A stretch of 64,000 nucleotides of DNA, taken from Catenuloplanes atrovinosus (lineage in GTDB: Bacteria > Actinomycetota > Actinomycetes > Mycobacteriales > Micromonosporaceae). The first letter of the stretch is position 1. Every line of letters starts with the position of its first letter. Location: assembly GCF_031458235.1 (NCBI RefSeq), contig NZ_JAVDYB010000001.1:1054001-1118000 (forward strand), written 5' to 3'. Of the stretch, positions 6,468 through 28,625 are shown piece after piece. The translations under genes and the position numbers were made by a program. Under the pieces are notes generated by a model, which saw only the letters and a list, made by a program, of their open reading frames with translations, did not search any database and was not told the DNA's origin.

Positions 6468-7559
6468 ATGAGTGAGCTGACTGTGACCGGACCGACGCGC
6501 ATCGACGTCGGCGGAGACGCCCCCTACCAGGTGCTGGTCGGCCGCGACCTGCTCGGCGAGCTGCCGGCGCTGCTGACCGGCGCGGAGCAGGCCGCGCTGC
6601 TCTACGCGGAGCCGCTCAAGCCGCGCGCCGAGGCGCTGGCCGGGCTGCTCGACGCCGCCGGCGTGCGGGCGCTCCCGATCGAGGTCCCGGACGCGGAGGA
6701 CGGTAAGACCATCGGCGTCGCGGCCGGGTGCTGGGACGCGCTCGGCGCGAACGGCTTCACGCGTACCGACGTGGTGATCGGCCTGGGCGGCGGCGCGGTG
6801 ACCGACCTGGCCGGATTCGTGGCCGCGGCCTGGCTGCGCGGCGTGCGCTGGGTGCCGGTCTCCACGTCGCTGCTCGGCATGGTGGACGCCGCGGTCGGCG
6901 GCAAGACCGGCGTCAACACCGCGGCCGGCAAGAACCTGGTGGGCGCGTTCCACCCGCCGGCCGGCGTGCTCTGCGACCTGGCGATGCTGGACACGCTGCC
7001 GCACGCCGACCTGGTCGCGGGCCTGGCCGAGGTGGTCAAGTGCGGCTTCATCGCGGACCCGGCCATCCTCGACCTGATCGAGGCGGACCCGGCCGCCGCG
7101 CAGGACCCGGCCTCGCCCGCGCTGCGCGAGCTGGTGGAGCGCGCGATCCGGGTCAAGGCGCACGTGGTCACGCACGACCTGCGCGAGTCCGGCCTGCGCG
7201 AGTTCCTCAACTACGGGCACACGCTGGCGCACGCGATCGAAAAGGTCGAGCACTACCGCTGGCGGCACGGGCACGCGGTCTCGGTCGGGCTGATCTACGC
7301 GGCCGCGCTCTCGGTCGCGGCCGGTCACCTGGCGCCGGAGATCGCGGCCCGCCACCGCCGCGTGCTGGCCTCGCTGGGCCTGCCGGTCGGCTACGAGGCG
7401 GACGCGTGGCCCGCGCTGCTCGCCGCGATGCGGGTGGACAAGAAGGCGCGCGGCAGCCGGCTGCGGTTCGTGGTGCTGGACGACCTGGGCAGCCCCACGA
7501 TCCTGGCCGGCCCGGCCGACGAGCTGCTGGAGGCCGCGTACCGCGAGGTGATCGCGTGA
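6468..7559 (+). CDS. aroB: 3-Dehydroquinate synthase
   Basis: Converts DAHP to 3-dehydroquinate with NAD+ and a divalent metal. Seen: [21 protein letters not shown] (NAD/substrate loop), [19 protein letters not shown] (active-site Lys region), LAEVVKCGF, and the metal-binding segment [13 protein letters not shown] with a later HGHAV. The ATG at 6468 gives 363 aa, the family norm, and starts just before [12 protein letters not shown]. Its TGA overlaps the aroQ GTG. The upstream gap holds only the antisense sigma relic, so aroB probably depends on read-through from aroK or a local promoter. Confidence 0.95.
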
Positions 7560-7987
7560 CCGTGCTGGTGCTCAACGGGCCTAACCTCGGCCGGCTCGGC
7601 ACCCGTCAGCCGGAGATCTACGGGCGCACCACCCACGCCGACCTGGTCCGGTTCTGTGAGGAGGCGGGCCGCGAGGCCGGGCTGGAGGTCGAGGTCCGGC
7701 AGACGAACGCGGAGCACGAGATGCTGGCCTGGCTGTACGAGGCCGCCGACGCCGGGATTCCCGTGGTGCTCAACGCGGGCGCCTGGACGCACTACAACTA
7801 CGCGCTGCGCGACGCCTGCGCCATGCTCACCGCGCCGCTGGTCGAGGTGCACATCTCCAACATCCACACGCGCGAGGAGTTCCGCCACCACTCGGTGATC
7901 TCCGCCGTCGCCACCGGCGTCATCGCCGGCCTCGGCATCGAGGGCTACCGCCTCGCGCTGCGCTACCTCGCCGCCCACCCCGCCTGA
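7556..7987 (+). CDS. aroQ: Type II 3-dehydroquinate dehydratase
   Basis: Dehydrates 3-dehydroquinate to 3-dehydroshikimate; the type II enzyme is a dodecamer of flavodoxin-like subunits. Signature segments: [18 protein letters not shown] (with the catalytic Tyr), [12 protein letters not shown], and [17 protein letters not shown] (substrate-binding His and Arg). It is 143 aa, standard length. The GTG at 7556 overlaps the aroB stop. Immediately after the stop begins a C-rich 14-bp tandem array leading into a palindromic element. Confidence 0.95.
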
Positions 7988-8001
7988 CCACCCCCGCGTC
8001 C

Positions 8002-8071
8002 CACGACCCGCGCCTCACCACCCGCGCCTCACCACCCGCACCGCACGACCCGCACCGCACGACCCGCGCCG
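8002..8071. repeat. 14-bp C-rich tandem array, five units
   Basis: Five 14-base units start at 8002, 8016, 8030, 8044 and 8058 with consensus CACSACCCGCRCCK. The array begins 15 bases after the aroQ stop and runs directly into the left arm of the palindrome at 8067. The same layout, with 15-bp units, precedes the second palindrome copy near 27.7 kb. Confidence 0.85.
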
Positions 8072-8130
8072 ATCTAGGGCGAATTCGCGTGATCGGAGAT
8101 CACAACGCCGGAATTCGCCCTAGATCGGCG
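8067..8130. repeat. Dispersed palindromic element, copy 1
   Basis: A perfect 20-bp stem (8067-8086 with 8111-8130; GATCTAGGGCGAATTC core) encloses 24 bases. Within these, GTGATC (8089-8094) and GATCAC (8098-8103) form a second 6-bp stem with a GGA triloop. Copy 2 lies at 27714-27783. This copy sits between the convergent aroQ and mannosyltransferase genes and could end transcription from both sides, though no T run is present. A G-rich repeat tract follows to the stop of the next gene. Confidence 0.9.
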
Positions 8131-8197
8131 GCTGAAGGGGTCGGCGGCGGGAGGGGGCGGCGGCGGGGGAGGGCGGGGGAGGGCGGGGCGGGGAGGG

Positions 8198-9724
8198 TCA
8201 GGCGGGGACGCGGGCGCGGTCGCGGTAGGCGGGCTCCTCGGCGTCGTCCTCCCAGCTCGGCAGCCACCACAGCACCACCGCGGCCGAGAGCACCAGCATC
8301 AGCACGCCGCCCAGCACCGCCATCACCACCTGGCCGACCGTGGCCGAGGCGCCGGTCGGGATCAGCAGCAGGGAGAGCGCGGCGCTGCCGATCGCCACCC
8401 AGCGCCGCACCGGGCTGTCCGCCGCGCTCGGCGCGCCGGCCGCGACCAGCACGATGCCCCACAGCAGGTACCACGGGTGCACCACCGGGCCGAGCAGGAC
8501 CAGCGCGAGCAGGCCGAGGCCGATCGCGTAGACCGGGCCGAGCACGCGCGCCCGCACCCACATCAGCAGCCCGTAGCCCACCGCGGCCGCGAGTCCCACG
8601 CCGCGCCAGAACGGCACCGCGTGGTGGGCCAGCCCGGACCCGATCGCGTCCAGCAGGTGCGCGGTGATCGCGCCGGCGTCCGTGCTCAGCGACATCCAGT
8701 TGTGCACCACCGCGGGCGTGTCCAGCGCGGCGATCCAGCCGTACCCGGTACCGGCCACGGCGTGCACCACGATCGCGGTCGCGGCCGCGCTCAGCACGGT
8801 CAGCGGCGCGGTGCGCAGGAACGGCAGCAACGGCCAGGGCATGTTCCGCAGGTACGCCAGGAACGCCCAGCGCGTCGGGGCCGCCGGCTGCTTGGCCCGG
8901 CCCTGCTGGATCTTCAGCGCCCAGAGCAGCGCGCAGAACGGCAGCACCAGCGCGGCCGGCGCCTTGACCAGCGCGGCCATCGTCACCAGCGCCACGCCGA
9001 TCACCGGGCCGGCCGCGCCCGCGCGCCGGGAGACCACCGCGGCCAGCCCGGCCGCCAGCAGGCCCAGCATCAGTGAGTCGTTGTGCGCGCCGGCCACCAG
9101 GTGCGTGAGGACCAGCGGGTTCAGCACGCCGAGCCAGAGCGCCTGGCCGGGGGAGACGCCGAGCCGGCGGGCGAGCACCGGCACCGTGAACGCCAGCATC
9201 GCCACGCCCAGCATGGCGACCAGGCGCATGCCGAACACGCCCGCGATCACGTGCGTGCCGGTCACGGTCGTCACCAGCGCGGCCACGGCCAGGAACAGCG
9301 GACCGTACGGCGCGGGGGTGTGCTGCCAGATGCCCGGTACCTCGGCCGCGAGCGGGCCGCCGAGCGTGGACGGGCCGTACAGGTAGACGTCCATCCCCTG
9401 GGCGAACATCTTGCCCTGCGCGAGGTAGCTGTACACGTCCCGGCTGAACATCGGCGGCGCGATCATCAGCGGCGCCGCCCAGAGCCCGAGCGTGATCTGC
9501 AACGAGCGGGCCGTCGCCTCCGTCGTACCCAGCCGCCACCAGGCCACCACGAGCAGGGTCAGGCCGGCGTACGCCAGCGCCATGCCCATGCCGACCAGGT
9601 CGGCGCGCTCGGCCGTCTGTTGGTACGGCAACGCACCGGCCGCGGTGCCGCCGGCGGCGAGCATGACCGCGCCGGCGAAGCCGAGCCATCGTGGCACGCT
9701 CCCGATCGAGGTCAGGCGCACCAT
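8198..9724 (-). CDS. Polyprenol-phosphomannose-dependent mannosyltransferase, MptA/MptB-like
   Basis: A multi-spanning glycosyltransferase of about 508 aa. It resembles actinobacterial alpha-1,6-mannosyltransferases that use polyprenyl-phosphate-mannose to extend lipomannan-type glycans on the outer face of the membrane. Seen: SRDVYSYLAQGKMFAQGMDVY with the Asp after the first long helices, typical of GT-C enzymes; YGPLFLAVAALV; and ten or more hydrophobic segments. I chose the ATG at 9724 because the first membrane helix starts soon after; the frame is open to 9925, so a longer N-terminus is possible. It is inserted convergently between aroQ and efp. The exact acceptor is unknown. Confidence 0.8.
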   Translation of the reverse strand: MVRLTSIGSVPRWLGFAGAVMLAAGGTAAGALPYQQTAERADLVGMGMALAYAGLTLLVVAWWRLGTTEATARSLQITLGLWAAPLMIAPPMFSRDVYSYLAQGKMFAQGMDVYLYGPSTLGGPLAAEVPGIWQHTPAPYGPLFLAVAALVTTVTGTHVIAGVFGMRLVAMLGVAMLAFTVPVLARRLGVSPGQALWLGVLNPLVLTHLVAGAHNDSLMLGLLAAGLAAVVSRRAGAAGPVIGVALVTMAALVKAPAALVLPFCALLWALKIQQGRAKQPAAPTRWAFLAYLRNMPWPLLPFLRTAPLTVLSAAATAIVVHAVAGTGYGWIAALDTPAVVHNWMSLSTDAGAITAHLLDAIGSGLAHHAVPFWRGVGLAAAVGYGLLMWVRARVLGPVYAIGLGLLALVLLGPVVHPWYLLWGIVLVAAGAPSAADSPVRRWVAIGSAALSLLLIPTGASATVGQVVMAVLGGVLMLVLSAAVVLWWLPSWEDDAEEPAYRDRARVPA

Positions 9725-9948
9725 GATCTGGCGGTCGGCGAATAGGACGTTCGGCAGGCTGGAGGCAGTCGGCACGCCCGCACGCTGCCAGTAGCGGGTG
9801 TCTATTCGGCGACGCGAAGGTAACGATTGATAGATCGTCGCACCATCACCGGCCCGGGAGGCGGCGCGACCGGTACGCCGGTAGACTGGGCTATTGTCCG
9901 CTAACGTTTTGCCGGTTTCACACACACGGCTTCACACCAAGGCAGGAA

Positions 9949-26615: not shown

Positions 26616-27470
26616 TCAGGCGTCGCGGAACTCGAGGGCGTGCAGGGCGGCGGTGAAGTCCTGGGAGCCGTGGCCGAGAACGACGGTCTCCTCCATCAGG
26701 CGGTGCATGGTCTCGGTGAGCGGGACCGAGACGCCGGCGGTGCGGGCGGCGCCGGCGACCAGGGACAGGTTCTTCAGGACGTCGGCGGCGCCACCCTGGA
26801 TGCTGAAGTCGCGGTCGACCAGCTTGGGTGACTTCACCCGGGAGATGTCGCTGGTCATCTGGCTGTCGTCGACGATGGCGCGCAGCGTGGCCAGGTCCAG
26901 GTTGTTGCGGGCGGCGAAGTGGAACGCCTCGACCAGGCCCATCACGCTGCTCAGCATGAAGATGTTGGTGGCCAGCTTCATGGTCAGCGCGTCCGGGACC
27001 GGGCCGCAGACGATGATCTCGCGGCACATCGGGGCCAGGACCGGGCGTACCGTCCCGATCGCGTCCGGCTCGCCGGCCACCATGGCGACCAGCTCACCCT
27101 TCTCGGCGGGCACCCGCGAGCCGGAGACCGGCGCCTCGACGTACGTGCCGCCGCCCGCGTGGACGGCGGACCGCAGGCGCAGCGAGTCCTCCGGCGAGAT
27201 CGTGCCCATGTGCACGACGGTGCGGCCGGCGACGTCCGCGTCCTCCAGCACGGCATCGGCCGCGGCGGCGTTGGCCAGCATCAGGACGATCACCCCGGCG
27301 CGCGTGAAGACCTCGGCGGCGGTGGCGGCGACGTGCGCGCCGGCCTCCCGCAGCGGCTCGGCCCGCGAGGCCGTGCGATTCCAGACGACGAGGTCGGTGC
27401 CGGCGCGGACGAGGTTCAGCGCCATCGGCTGACCCATGGTCCCCAGCCCGACGAAACCCACGGTTGTCAT
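26616..27470 (-). CDS. NAD(P)-dependent 3-hydroxyisobutyrate dehydrogenase-family protein
   Basis: A beta-hydroxyacid dehydrogenase of 284 aa. The Rossmann motif GFVGLGTMGQPMALNL is at residues 5-20. The family signature follows as YVEAPVSGSRVPAEKG, and the catalytic Lys is in ALTMKLATNIF near residue 175. Substrate cannot be assigned: hydroxyisobutyrate, tartronate semialdehyde (GarR-like), glyoxylate reductase and imine-reductase relatives share these motifs. It is convergent with metK. Its 5' side is a 680-base gene-free stretch with tandem arrays. Confidence 0.85.
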   Translation of the reverse strand: MTTVGFVGLGTMGQPMALNLVRAGTDLVVWNRTASRAEPLREAGAHVAATAAEVFTRAGVIVLMLANAAAADAVLEDADVAGRTVVHMGTISPEDSLRLRSAVHAGGGTYVEAPVSGSRVPAEKGELVAMVAGEPDAIGTVRPVLAPMCREIIVCGPVPDALTMKLATNIFMLSSVMGLVEAFHFAARNNLDLATLRAIVDDSQMTSDISRVKSPKLVDRDFSIQGGAADVLKNLSLVAGAARTAGVSVPLTETMHRLMEETVVLGHGSQDFTAALHALEFRDA

Positions 27471-27610
27471 AGGTGCCCTCCGAAGTCACGGCAACTCGCG
27501 GTGAGAGAACGTGACCGGCACCGCCCCCGGTTCGCCCCCTATGGCTCACCTCACCCCACCCCCGCCCGCGTGCGCTCTGCCCGCGCGCGCTCTGCCCGCG
27601 CGCACTGTCC

Positions 27611-27715
27611 GCGCGTGCTCTGTCCGCGCGTGCTCTGTCCGCGCGTGCTCTGTCCGCGCGTGCTCTGTCCGCGCGTGCTCTGTCCGCGCGTGCTCTGTCC
27701 GCGCGCGCCCCGTCC
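27611..27715. repeat. 15-bp tandem array, six exact units and one variant
   Basis: GCGCGTGCTCTGTCC is repeated without change at 27611, 27626, 27641, 27656, 27671 and 27686, then once as a variant at 27701. Degenerate copies extend left to about 27560. The perfect identity implies recent expansion. It runs directly into the palindrome copy at 27714. The array is 5' of the dehydrogenase gene, whose promoter must lie in the 90 bases between them, or upstream through the array. Confidence 0.95.
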
Positions 27716-27783
27716 GCGCCGATCTAGGGCGGATTCGCGTGATTGGAGATCGAAGTGCGGGAATCCGCCCTAGATCGGCGCGG
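27714..27783. repeat. Dispersed palindromic element, copy 2
   Basis: A 23-bp perfect stem (27714-27736 with 27761-27783) encloses a 24-base centre. The core equals copy 1 at 8067-8130 except for paired changes: GAATTC/GAATTC there becomes GGATTC/GAATCC here, so pairing is kept. The centre begins GCGTGATTGGAGATC, one change from copy 1. It is flanked by a C-rich array on the left and a G-rich array on the right, as in copy 1. Confidence 0.9.
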
Positions 27784-28140
27784 CAGCGGGGCGGCGCGGC
27801 AGTGGGGCGGCGGCGCGGCAGTGGGGCGGCGGCGCGGCAGTGGGGCGGCGGCGCGGCAGTGGGGCGGCGGCGCGGCGGCGGGGCGGCAGTGGGGCGGCGG
27901 CGGGGCGGCAGTGGGGCGGCGGGGCGGCGGCGCGGCGGCGGCGCGGCGGCGGGGCGGCAGGGCGGCAGCGGGGCGGCGGCGCGGCGGCGGGGCGGCGGCA
28001 GCGGGGCGGCGGGGCGGCAGCGGGGCGGCGGCGCGGCAGGGCAGCGGGGCGGCGGCGCGGCAGCGCGGCAGGGCAGCGGGGCGGCGGCGCGGCAGCGGGG
28101 CGGCGGCGCGGCGGTGCGGTGGTGCGGTGGTGAGCGGGGG
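27784..28140. repeat. G-rich 19-bp-type tandem array
   Basis: The plus strand is almost only G, C and occasional A/T in GGGGCGGCGGCGCGG blocks. CAGTGGGG recurs at 27800, 27819, 27838 and 27857, 19 bases apart, before the register breaks into shorter GGGGCGG units. Repeated G runs give G-quadruplex potential on this strand. It ends about ten bases before the stop of the VOC gene, i.e. at its 3' side. I see no gene here. Confidence 0.85.
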
Positions 28141-28151
28141 CGGTGGGTGGG

Positions 28152-28625
28152 TCAGGGGGCGACGAAGATGCAGAAGGGGTGGCCGGACGGGTCGGCGTAG
28201 ACGCGGAGTGGCTCCGGGGTGTCGTCGCCGGTGCGTTCCAGCAGCAGGGTGGCGCCCAGAGCGAGTGCGCGGGAGTGCTGGGCGTCCAGGTCGGCGACGC
28301 TGGGCACGACGAGGTCGAGGTGGAGCTGCTGGGGGATGCCGGGGGTGGGCCAGGTGGGGCGGGGCAGCGAGGGCACGTGCTGGAAGGCGAGCCGGGGCGG
28401 GCCGCCGGGTTCGCGGAGTACCAGCCAGTCGCGGCCGAGCGGGTCGTCGGCACCGGGGGCGGGGGGCTCGTCGCCGGGGCGGTATTCCAGGGCGAGCAGT
28501 TCGCGATAGAACTCGGCGAGGGCGCGCGGGTCGGGGGTGTCCAGCACCACCTGGCGGATGGCCGGGACGCTCACGCCGGCCCGTTCGGTGCGGTGTCCGT
28601 CTGTTTCGCGCGCAAGCTCGCTCAT
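28152..28625 (-). CDS. VOC-family (glyoxalase/bleomycin-resistance fold) protein
   Basis: A 157-residue single-module VOC protein. The betaalphabetabetabeta units begin IRQVVLDTPDPRALAEFYRELLALEY and, in the second half, HLDLVVPSVADLDAQHSRALALGATLL, ending VYADPSGHPFCIFV. This is the common actinobacterial VOC layout. Function cannot be predicted; relatives include dioxygenases, isomerases and antibiotic-binding proteins. The ATG at 28625 precedes the fold by 20 residues; the frame is open further but with repeat-like sequence. Confidence 0.8.
   Translation of the reverse strand: MSELARETDGHRTERAGVSVPAIRQVVLDTPDPRALAEFYRELLALEYRPGDEPPAPGADDPLGRDWLVLREPGGPPRLAFQHVPSLPRPTWPTPGIPQQLHLDLVVPSVADLDAQHSRALALGATLLLERTGDDTPEPLRVYADPSGHPFCIFVAP

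Follow-up and report, generated by a model that had tools for sequence, protein, structure and literature searches.

A palindrome of fixed length, commonly flanked by C-rich tandem repeats on its left and by G-rich ones on its right, recurs in about 50 copies in the genome of Catenuloplanes atrovinosus and appears, from searches of Rfam and of the literature (the latter yielding nothing relevant to the element), to represent a hitherto undescribed palindromic repeat family of the Micromonosporaceae. Judging from its sequence, we think it somewhat more probable than not that this is a new REP-like family that stops transcription from both directions where genes end, and that the arrays are secondary, arising by tandem duplication of its borders. 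We analyzed a 64-kb stretch (the window; 64,000 nucleotides) that holds two copies, along with the genome to which it belongs (G000, a single 8.9-Mb contig), further Micromonosporaceae genomes, and orthologous sites in congeners.

Two palindrome loci in the window

The features of the copy at 27.7 kb, and of a second one next to aroQ, are as follows.

27721..27776, + strand: palindrome core of 56 bp with the inverted half-sites GATCTAGG / CCTAGATC, orientation set by the central GGAGATC (84.9 bits)
27717..27728, + strand: left half-site with its foot, CGCC-GATCTAGG, (nearly) invariant across 48 copies
27769..27780, − strand: right half-site with its foot, CCTAGATC-GGCG, from the 48-copy alignment
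27745..27751, + strand: conserved apical loop GGAGATC
27566..27719, + strand: C-rich left tandem array, 15-bp unit, 10.4 copies, 92% matches (TRF)
27776..28127, + strand: G-rich right tandem array, 19-bp unit, 18.5 copies, 80% (TRF)
27558..28151, no strand: composite stretch as a whole, missing from congeners (empty site in G002, G003, and G004)
26616..27470, − strand: 3-hydroxyisobutyrate dehydrogenase-like gene (PF03446, PF14833), start toward the element
28152..28574, − strand: glyoxalase/VOC gene (PF18029), 3' end toward the element
8071..8126, + strand: second palindrome core (73 bits)
7978..8070, + strand: C-rich left array at the aroQ copy, 14/28-bp unit
~8126..8208, + strand: G-rich right array at the aroQ copy, 10-16-bp units
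7556..7987, + strand: aroQ, type II dehydroquinase (PF01220), convergent with a gene at 8198-9775 (− strand)

At 27.7 kb, the extended stem (~27714-27783) has an RNA minimum free energy of −66.5 kcal/mol (z = −9.6), and the innermost units of the right array open with GGCGCGGCAG, a sequence of the element's border. A first-pass annotation had described the left repeat as a perfect 15-bp array at 27611-27715; the array is present, and its strictly perfect part consists of six copies at 27607-27696. The array-palindrome-array layout that this annotation had seen at both loci is borne out, as is its remark that the array sequences differ between them. Within the window, pairs composed of a C-skewed array, a gap, and a G-skewed array occur at these two loci only, and C-left/G-right pairs numbered zero in 280 kb of control DNA from the same chromosome and one in 360 kb of congener DNA. 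Array pairs without a palindrome, named in the annotation as the observation that would speak against a composite element, are thus nearly absent.

The window also contains further long inverted repeats at 1448-1510 (29 bp, 97%) and 1708-1865 (62 bp, 82%), which share one 1.3-kb convergent gap with a 51-bp array at 2121-2388; none of these matches the 66-base element.

A family with near-invariant half-sites and variable arms

Copies were counted with pattern and covariance-model searches, and 48 of those in G000 could be aligned without gaps, their length being fixed and the offset between the arms invariant. The element has the format CGYC-GATCTAGG...GAGATC...CCTAGATC-GRCG around a core of 56 bp, within a conserved span of ~66 bp that runs through CGYC, GATCTAGG, a variable arm ending in ATTC, GAGATC, GGAAT, the second variable arm, CCTAGATC, and GRCGCGG. 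Copies share on average 46 of 56 bases. A search that tolerated 3 mismatches anywhere in 19 bases returned 3 mismatches in half-site positions 1-8 versus 62 in positions 9-16, and the constraint on the half-sites is hence not an artefact of detection. Most variable arm positions show no covariation within G000, with position pair -1/58 as the exception, which counts against a two-way stop. As proof of an RNA structure, within-genome covariation was therefore rejected, being absent save at -1/58; between genomes it is clear. Rfam gave no match in the window above the gathering score, and the weak matches obtained at permissive E-values were to generic hairpins such as microRNA precursors, so that assignment to an Rfam family was discarded.

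Five close pairs of palindromes (L005, L012, L020, L026, and L027) lie 133-258 bp apart in like orientation, and some of their members have rare variants in common (54 and 51 of 56 bases identical), which suggests local tandem duplication of longer stretches.

With a covariance model built from 46 copies, we searched 151 Micromonosporaceae genomes and obtained matches in 33 of them, with no more than 31 candidates scored in any one genome; 11 genomes had 15 or more scored matches, and three of four congeners had none. Carriers include the Micromonosporaceae metagenome-assembled genomes (MAGs) CSSed165cm_73 and CR_Sed_300A_bin.20. Individual genomes have variants of their own, namely AAATACGTGTG arms in G462, GATCAAGG half-sites in G034, and near-perfect 26-bp stems in CSSed, and across genera the half-sites and their spacing stay fixed. 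Compensatory change in the arms is evident between genomes, with 138 double-changed cells versus a mean of 77.5 upon shuffling and at most 67 for slid versions. One copy is orthologous in two species of another genus (L067/L263); its half-sites and loop are intact, its arms have diverged, and its pyrimidine and purine flanks are conserved in composition only. In G462 (L244-L263), 7 of 20 copies are hybrids that combine arms from two subfamilies and are mismatched there, and arms seem to have been exchanged between copies. Given these mismatched copies and the lack of covariation at most arm positions in G000, perfect pairing is not strictly required. Mismatched arms fit DNA half-sites and an RNA hairpin equally, and the DNA half-sites may be as important as the hairpin.

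Beyond the Micromonosporaceae, isolated matches in one other family of the class reveal a sister palindrome, CGTTGATCTTGG...CCAAGATCAACG and also GTTGATCTTGGAGTTGTTCGG...CCGAACAACTCCAAGATCAAC (L286-L289), which shares the layout CGTY-GATC-NNGG; this suggests that palindromes with a GATC foot form a broader superfamily among Actinobacteria. A phage or viral origin was rejected, as the pattern is absent from viral contigs.

Location at gene ends

Genes were called with a gene finder built on a simple codon model. By these calls, 32 of 48 copies fall in gaps between convergent genes, compared to 41 of 217 adjacent gene pairs in control regions. The element sits at gene 3' ends, where several genes terminate within it and a few copies overlap a predicted gene end. 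In two MAGs, the stop codon of a neighbor falls inside the element in 21 of 47 and 10 of 21 copies, and in several cases, according to gene coordinates, this stop codon is the TAG of GATCTAGG. Both orientations of the element occur along the chromosome, with no replichore rule obvious on inspection. The 27.7-kb copy has both its neighbors on the minus strand, being downstream of the glyoxalase gene and upstream of the 3-hydroxyisobutyrate dehydrogenase-like gene, and these co-directional neighbors count against reading it as a two-way stop.

Polarized arrays that begin at the border

Tandem arrays detected by TRF occupy the left intergenic flank of 33 of the 48 copies, the right flank of 32, both flanks of 25, and neither flank of 8. 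At least one array thus accompanies 40 of 48 copies, so the earlier notion of a composite element largely holds, with the correction that the arrays are optional: 8 copies in G000 are array-less, as is almost every copy in two related MAGs. By genome, G000 and G462 have arrays commonly and G034 has them in part, whereas the two MAGs have hardly any, although short-read assembly may also hide them there. Arrays make up 46% of flank bases; the corresponding share is 16% for control gaps between convergent genes and 6-7% for the remaining control gaps.

The C/G asymmetry that the annotation had pointed to is found, as an average, for each copy set and each gene orientation. In convergent gaps, C/G skew averages +0.35 in left flanks and −0.38 in right flanks, compared to +0.03/−0.04 in control convergent gaps; it is similar or stronger at non-convergent copies, and all lineages show the same C-left/G-right polarity on average. 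Convergent transcription was ruled out as its source, because control convergent gaps lack the skew and non-convergent copies have it. G-quadruplex motifs follow this polarity, appearing on the outward G-rich strand at 56 of 96 sides and on the other strand at 2 of 96, with 13 of 206 for control gaps. Complementarity between the two flanks beyond that expected from composition was significant in G000 (p = 0.0006) and not in G030.

Read outward from the palindrome, the array units of 17 sides, a set biased by how sides were selected, have their first base precisely at the border that follows GATC; L036, for example, has GACGCGCAGAGAGGGC three times from the border outward, and L048 has GACGCGGACGGGGCATC twice and then close variants. 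Counts of border decamers in the flanks are 41 and 63, versus 6 and 11 in shuffles, and usual unit lengths are 13-20 bp. At 34 of 48 sides in G034, the half-site recurs at a distance of exactly 19 bp outward. The units on the left and on the right are border sequences inverted relative to each other, not one array cut in two. Inner units are slightly more alike than outer ones (0.858 versus 0.800, p = 0.04), with a reversed trend in the 27.7-kb arrays, which lends weak support to the inner units being the newest. In other genera (L229, L241, and L240), the unit of the right array opens with the foot, e.g., (GATCGACGGGGACGGTGG)n and (CCCTTGATCRGCGTCGCAAT)n.

Congener sites without the element

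The element was absent at all orthologous congener sites examined. At the VOC site, the flanking genes nearly abut in three congeners (8-20 bp; G002-G004), with neither palindrome nor array, and both are likewise missing from the VOC locus of a fourth (G001). As these sites are empty, the lineage of G000 gained the arrays as well as the palindrome, the arrays from local border sequence; and as the examined sites of congeners without the palindrome are free of arrays too, the palindrome did not insert into arrays that were already there. The earlier suggestion that the palindrome induces repeat expansion is thereby largely upheld, with fork stalling as its presumed cause. Of the two hallmarks of a MITE, terminal inverted repeats and a target-site duplication, the element has inverted repeats; comparison with the empty VOC site revealed no duplication, and other sites were too diverged for this comparison.

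Unrelated hairpins stand at the matching gene ends of congeners at aroQ, L015, and L050, as well as at L017 in one of two congeners, from which it follows that a hairpin has a conserved role there and that the element replaced or joined it. At L050, the ancestral hairpin has been kept in G000, and its 3' arm is the source of the left array unit. No clear congener hairpin was found at co-directional sites, which counts against a two-way stop.

The genus also has a second dispersed repeat near gene ends, CCCGCTTCCGGCGTGG...GCGGGCACCGGTCGTCGCTGGCGCTCCTCCCTGC (L017:1280-1420; congener loci L195-L209), which occurs where congeners are without the palindrome.

A proposed two-way stop and its alternatives

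In the reading that we favor, RNA polymerase coming from either side would copy a C-rich, G-poor stretch of the Rho-loading type, then a stable hairpin (mean energy about −50 to −58 kcal/mol), and then G-rich DNA. No U-tract follows the hairpin, which makes classical intrinsic termination unlikely. Units of ~13-20 bp, starting at the border after GATC, would be duplicated outward, the simplest cause being slippage of the polymerase at a hairpin that may stall replication. As the half-sites are near-invariant in every copy, they point to a sequence-specific reader, presumably a protein. We also considered, with little confidence, that a dedicated host protein reads the inverted GATCWAGG and that the palindrome with its outward G-rich tracts acts as a two-way insulator, its flanks being regenerated by border duplication; if so, gene-end insulators would be made and remade through repeat expansion.

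The patchy distribution of the element, its absence from all orthologous congener sites examined, its lineage-specific variants, and the average identity of 46/56 between copies speak for a mobile palindrome that is non-autonomous and purely selfish (REPIN- or MITE-like), happens to be tolerated at gene ends, and has no use for the host. We hold this to be possible although doubtful. Against it, the half-sites are almost undecayed while the arms decay; moreover, one copy (L067/L263) has been kept in place in two species with its half-sites intact, the one closely read site has no target-site duplication, and RAYT (PF01797) is lacking in 13 of 14 genomes tested, G000 included. Half-sites that are invariant at fixed spacing across genera, that recur at 19-bp steps in G034, and that tolerate mismatched arms could alternatively be read by a nucleoid or chromosome-organizing protein, which would bind two inverted GATCWAGG at fixed spacing and, in some species, arrays of half-sites. 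We regard this as rather unlikely: the strong bias to gene ends and convergent gaps speaks against it, as do the two orientations, which on inspection follow no obvious replichore rule, and the reader protein is so far hypothetical. Tandem arrays also exist elsewhere in G000 (3% of bases), and the palindrome might in principle have inserted into older C-rich and G-rich arrays. This is very improbable, given that orthologous congener sites are array-less, the two genes at the VOC site being 8-20 bp apart, that left and right units are inverted borders and hence no single split array, and that pairs of such polarity are absent from the 280 kb of controls.

With ~50 natural replicates in one genome and empty orthologous sites beside them, the system allows one to ask whether a palindrome seeds two-sided tandem repeats. 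It further opens to testing the idea that a repeated, sequence-specific element, as opposed to individual terminators, can insulate gene ends in actinobacteria.

Comparison with known systems

The element resembles REP, REPIN, and BIME sequences in being a short, extragenic, high-copy palindrome with species-specific variants, in lying at gene 3' ends and in convergent gaps, and in pairing two conserved halves in inverted orientation. It differs from them in its foot, which is CGYC compared to GTAG in the GTAG family of REP/REPINs, in its length of 56-66 bp versus the 20-40 bp of a single REP stem-loop, and in the C-rich and G-rich tracts and tandem arrays flanking it. A REP driven by RAYT, the Y1 tyrosine transposase, was ruled out, as G000 has no PF01797; G011 was the sole genome of the 14 with matches, both of them partial.

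Closer in their foot are the CGTC-tagged REPs (Di Nocera et al. 2013), including dRS3 of Neisseria, which have an unpaired tag, a CCA-like tail, a stem of 8-9 bp, and a loop of 4-5 nt, and for which the main text makes no mention of Actinobacteria (PMC3733652). The element shares with them the CGTC at the foot, the location downstream of genes, and the lack of a known dedicated transposase; in contrast, its CGYC pairs with GRCG, as covariation at -1/58 indicates, and its stem extends to 26 bp plus flanks.

Like a terminator, the element offers a stable hairpin on both strands with a C-rich, G-poor tract ahead of it from either side, and it replaces or joins the ordinary hairpins of congeners. 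Judged by flank skew, the upstream transcript has the C-rich, G-poor composition of Rho-dependent terminators in all lineages. It departs from intrinsic terminators in having no U-tract, and from terminators in general in that it is one repeated sequence with invariant half-sites, conserved far beyond what a terminator needs.
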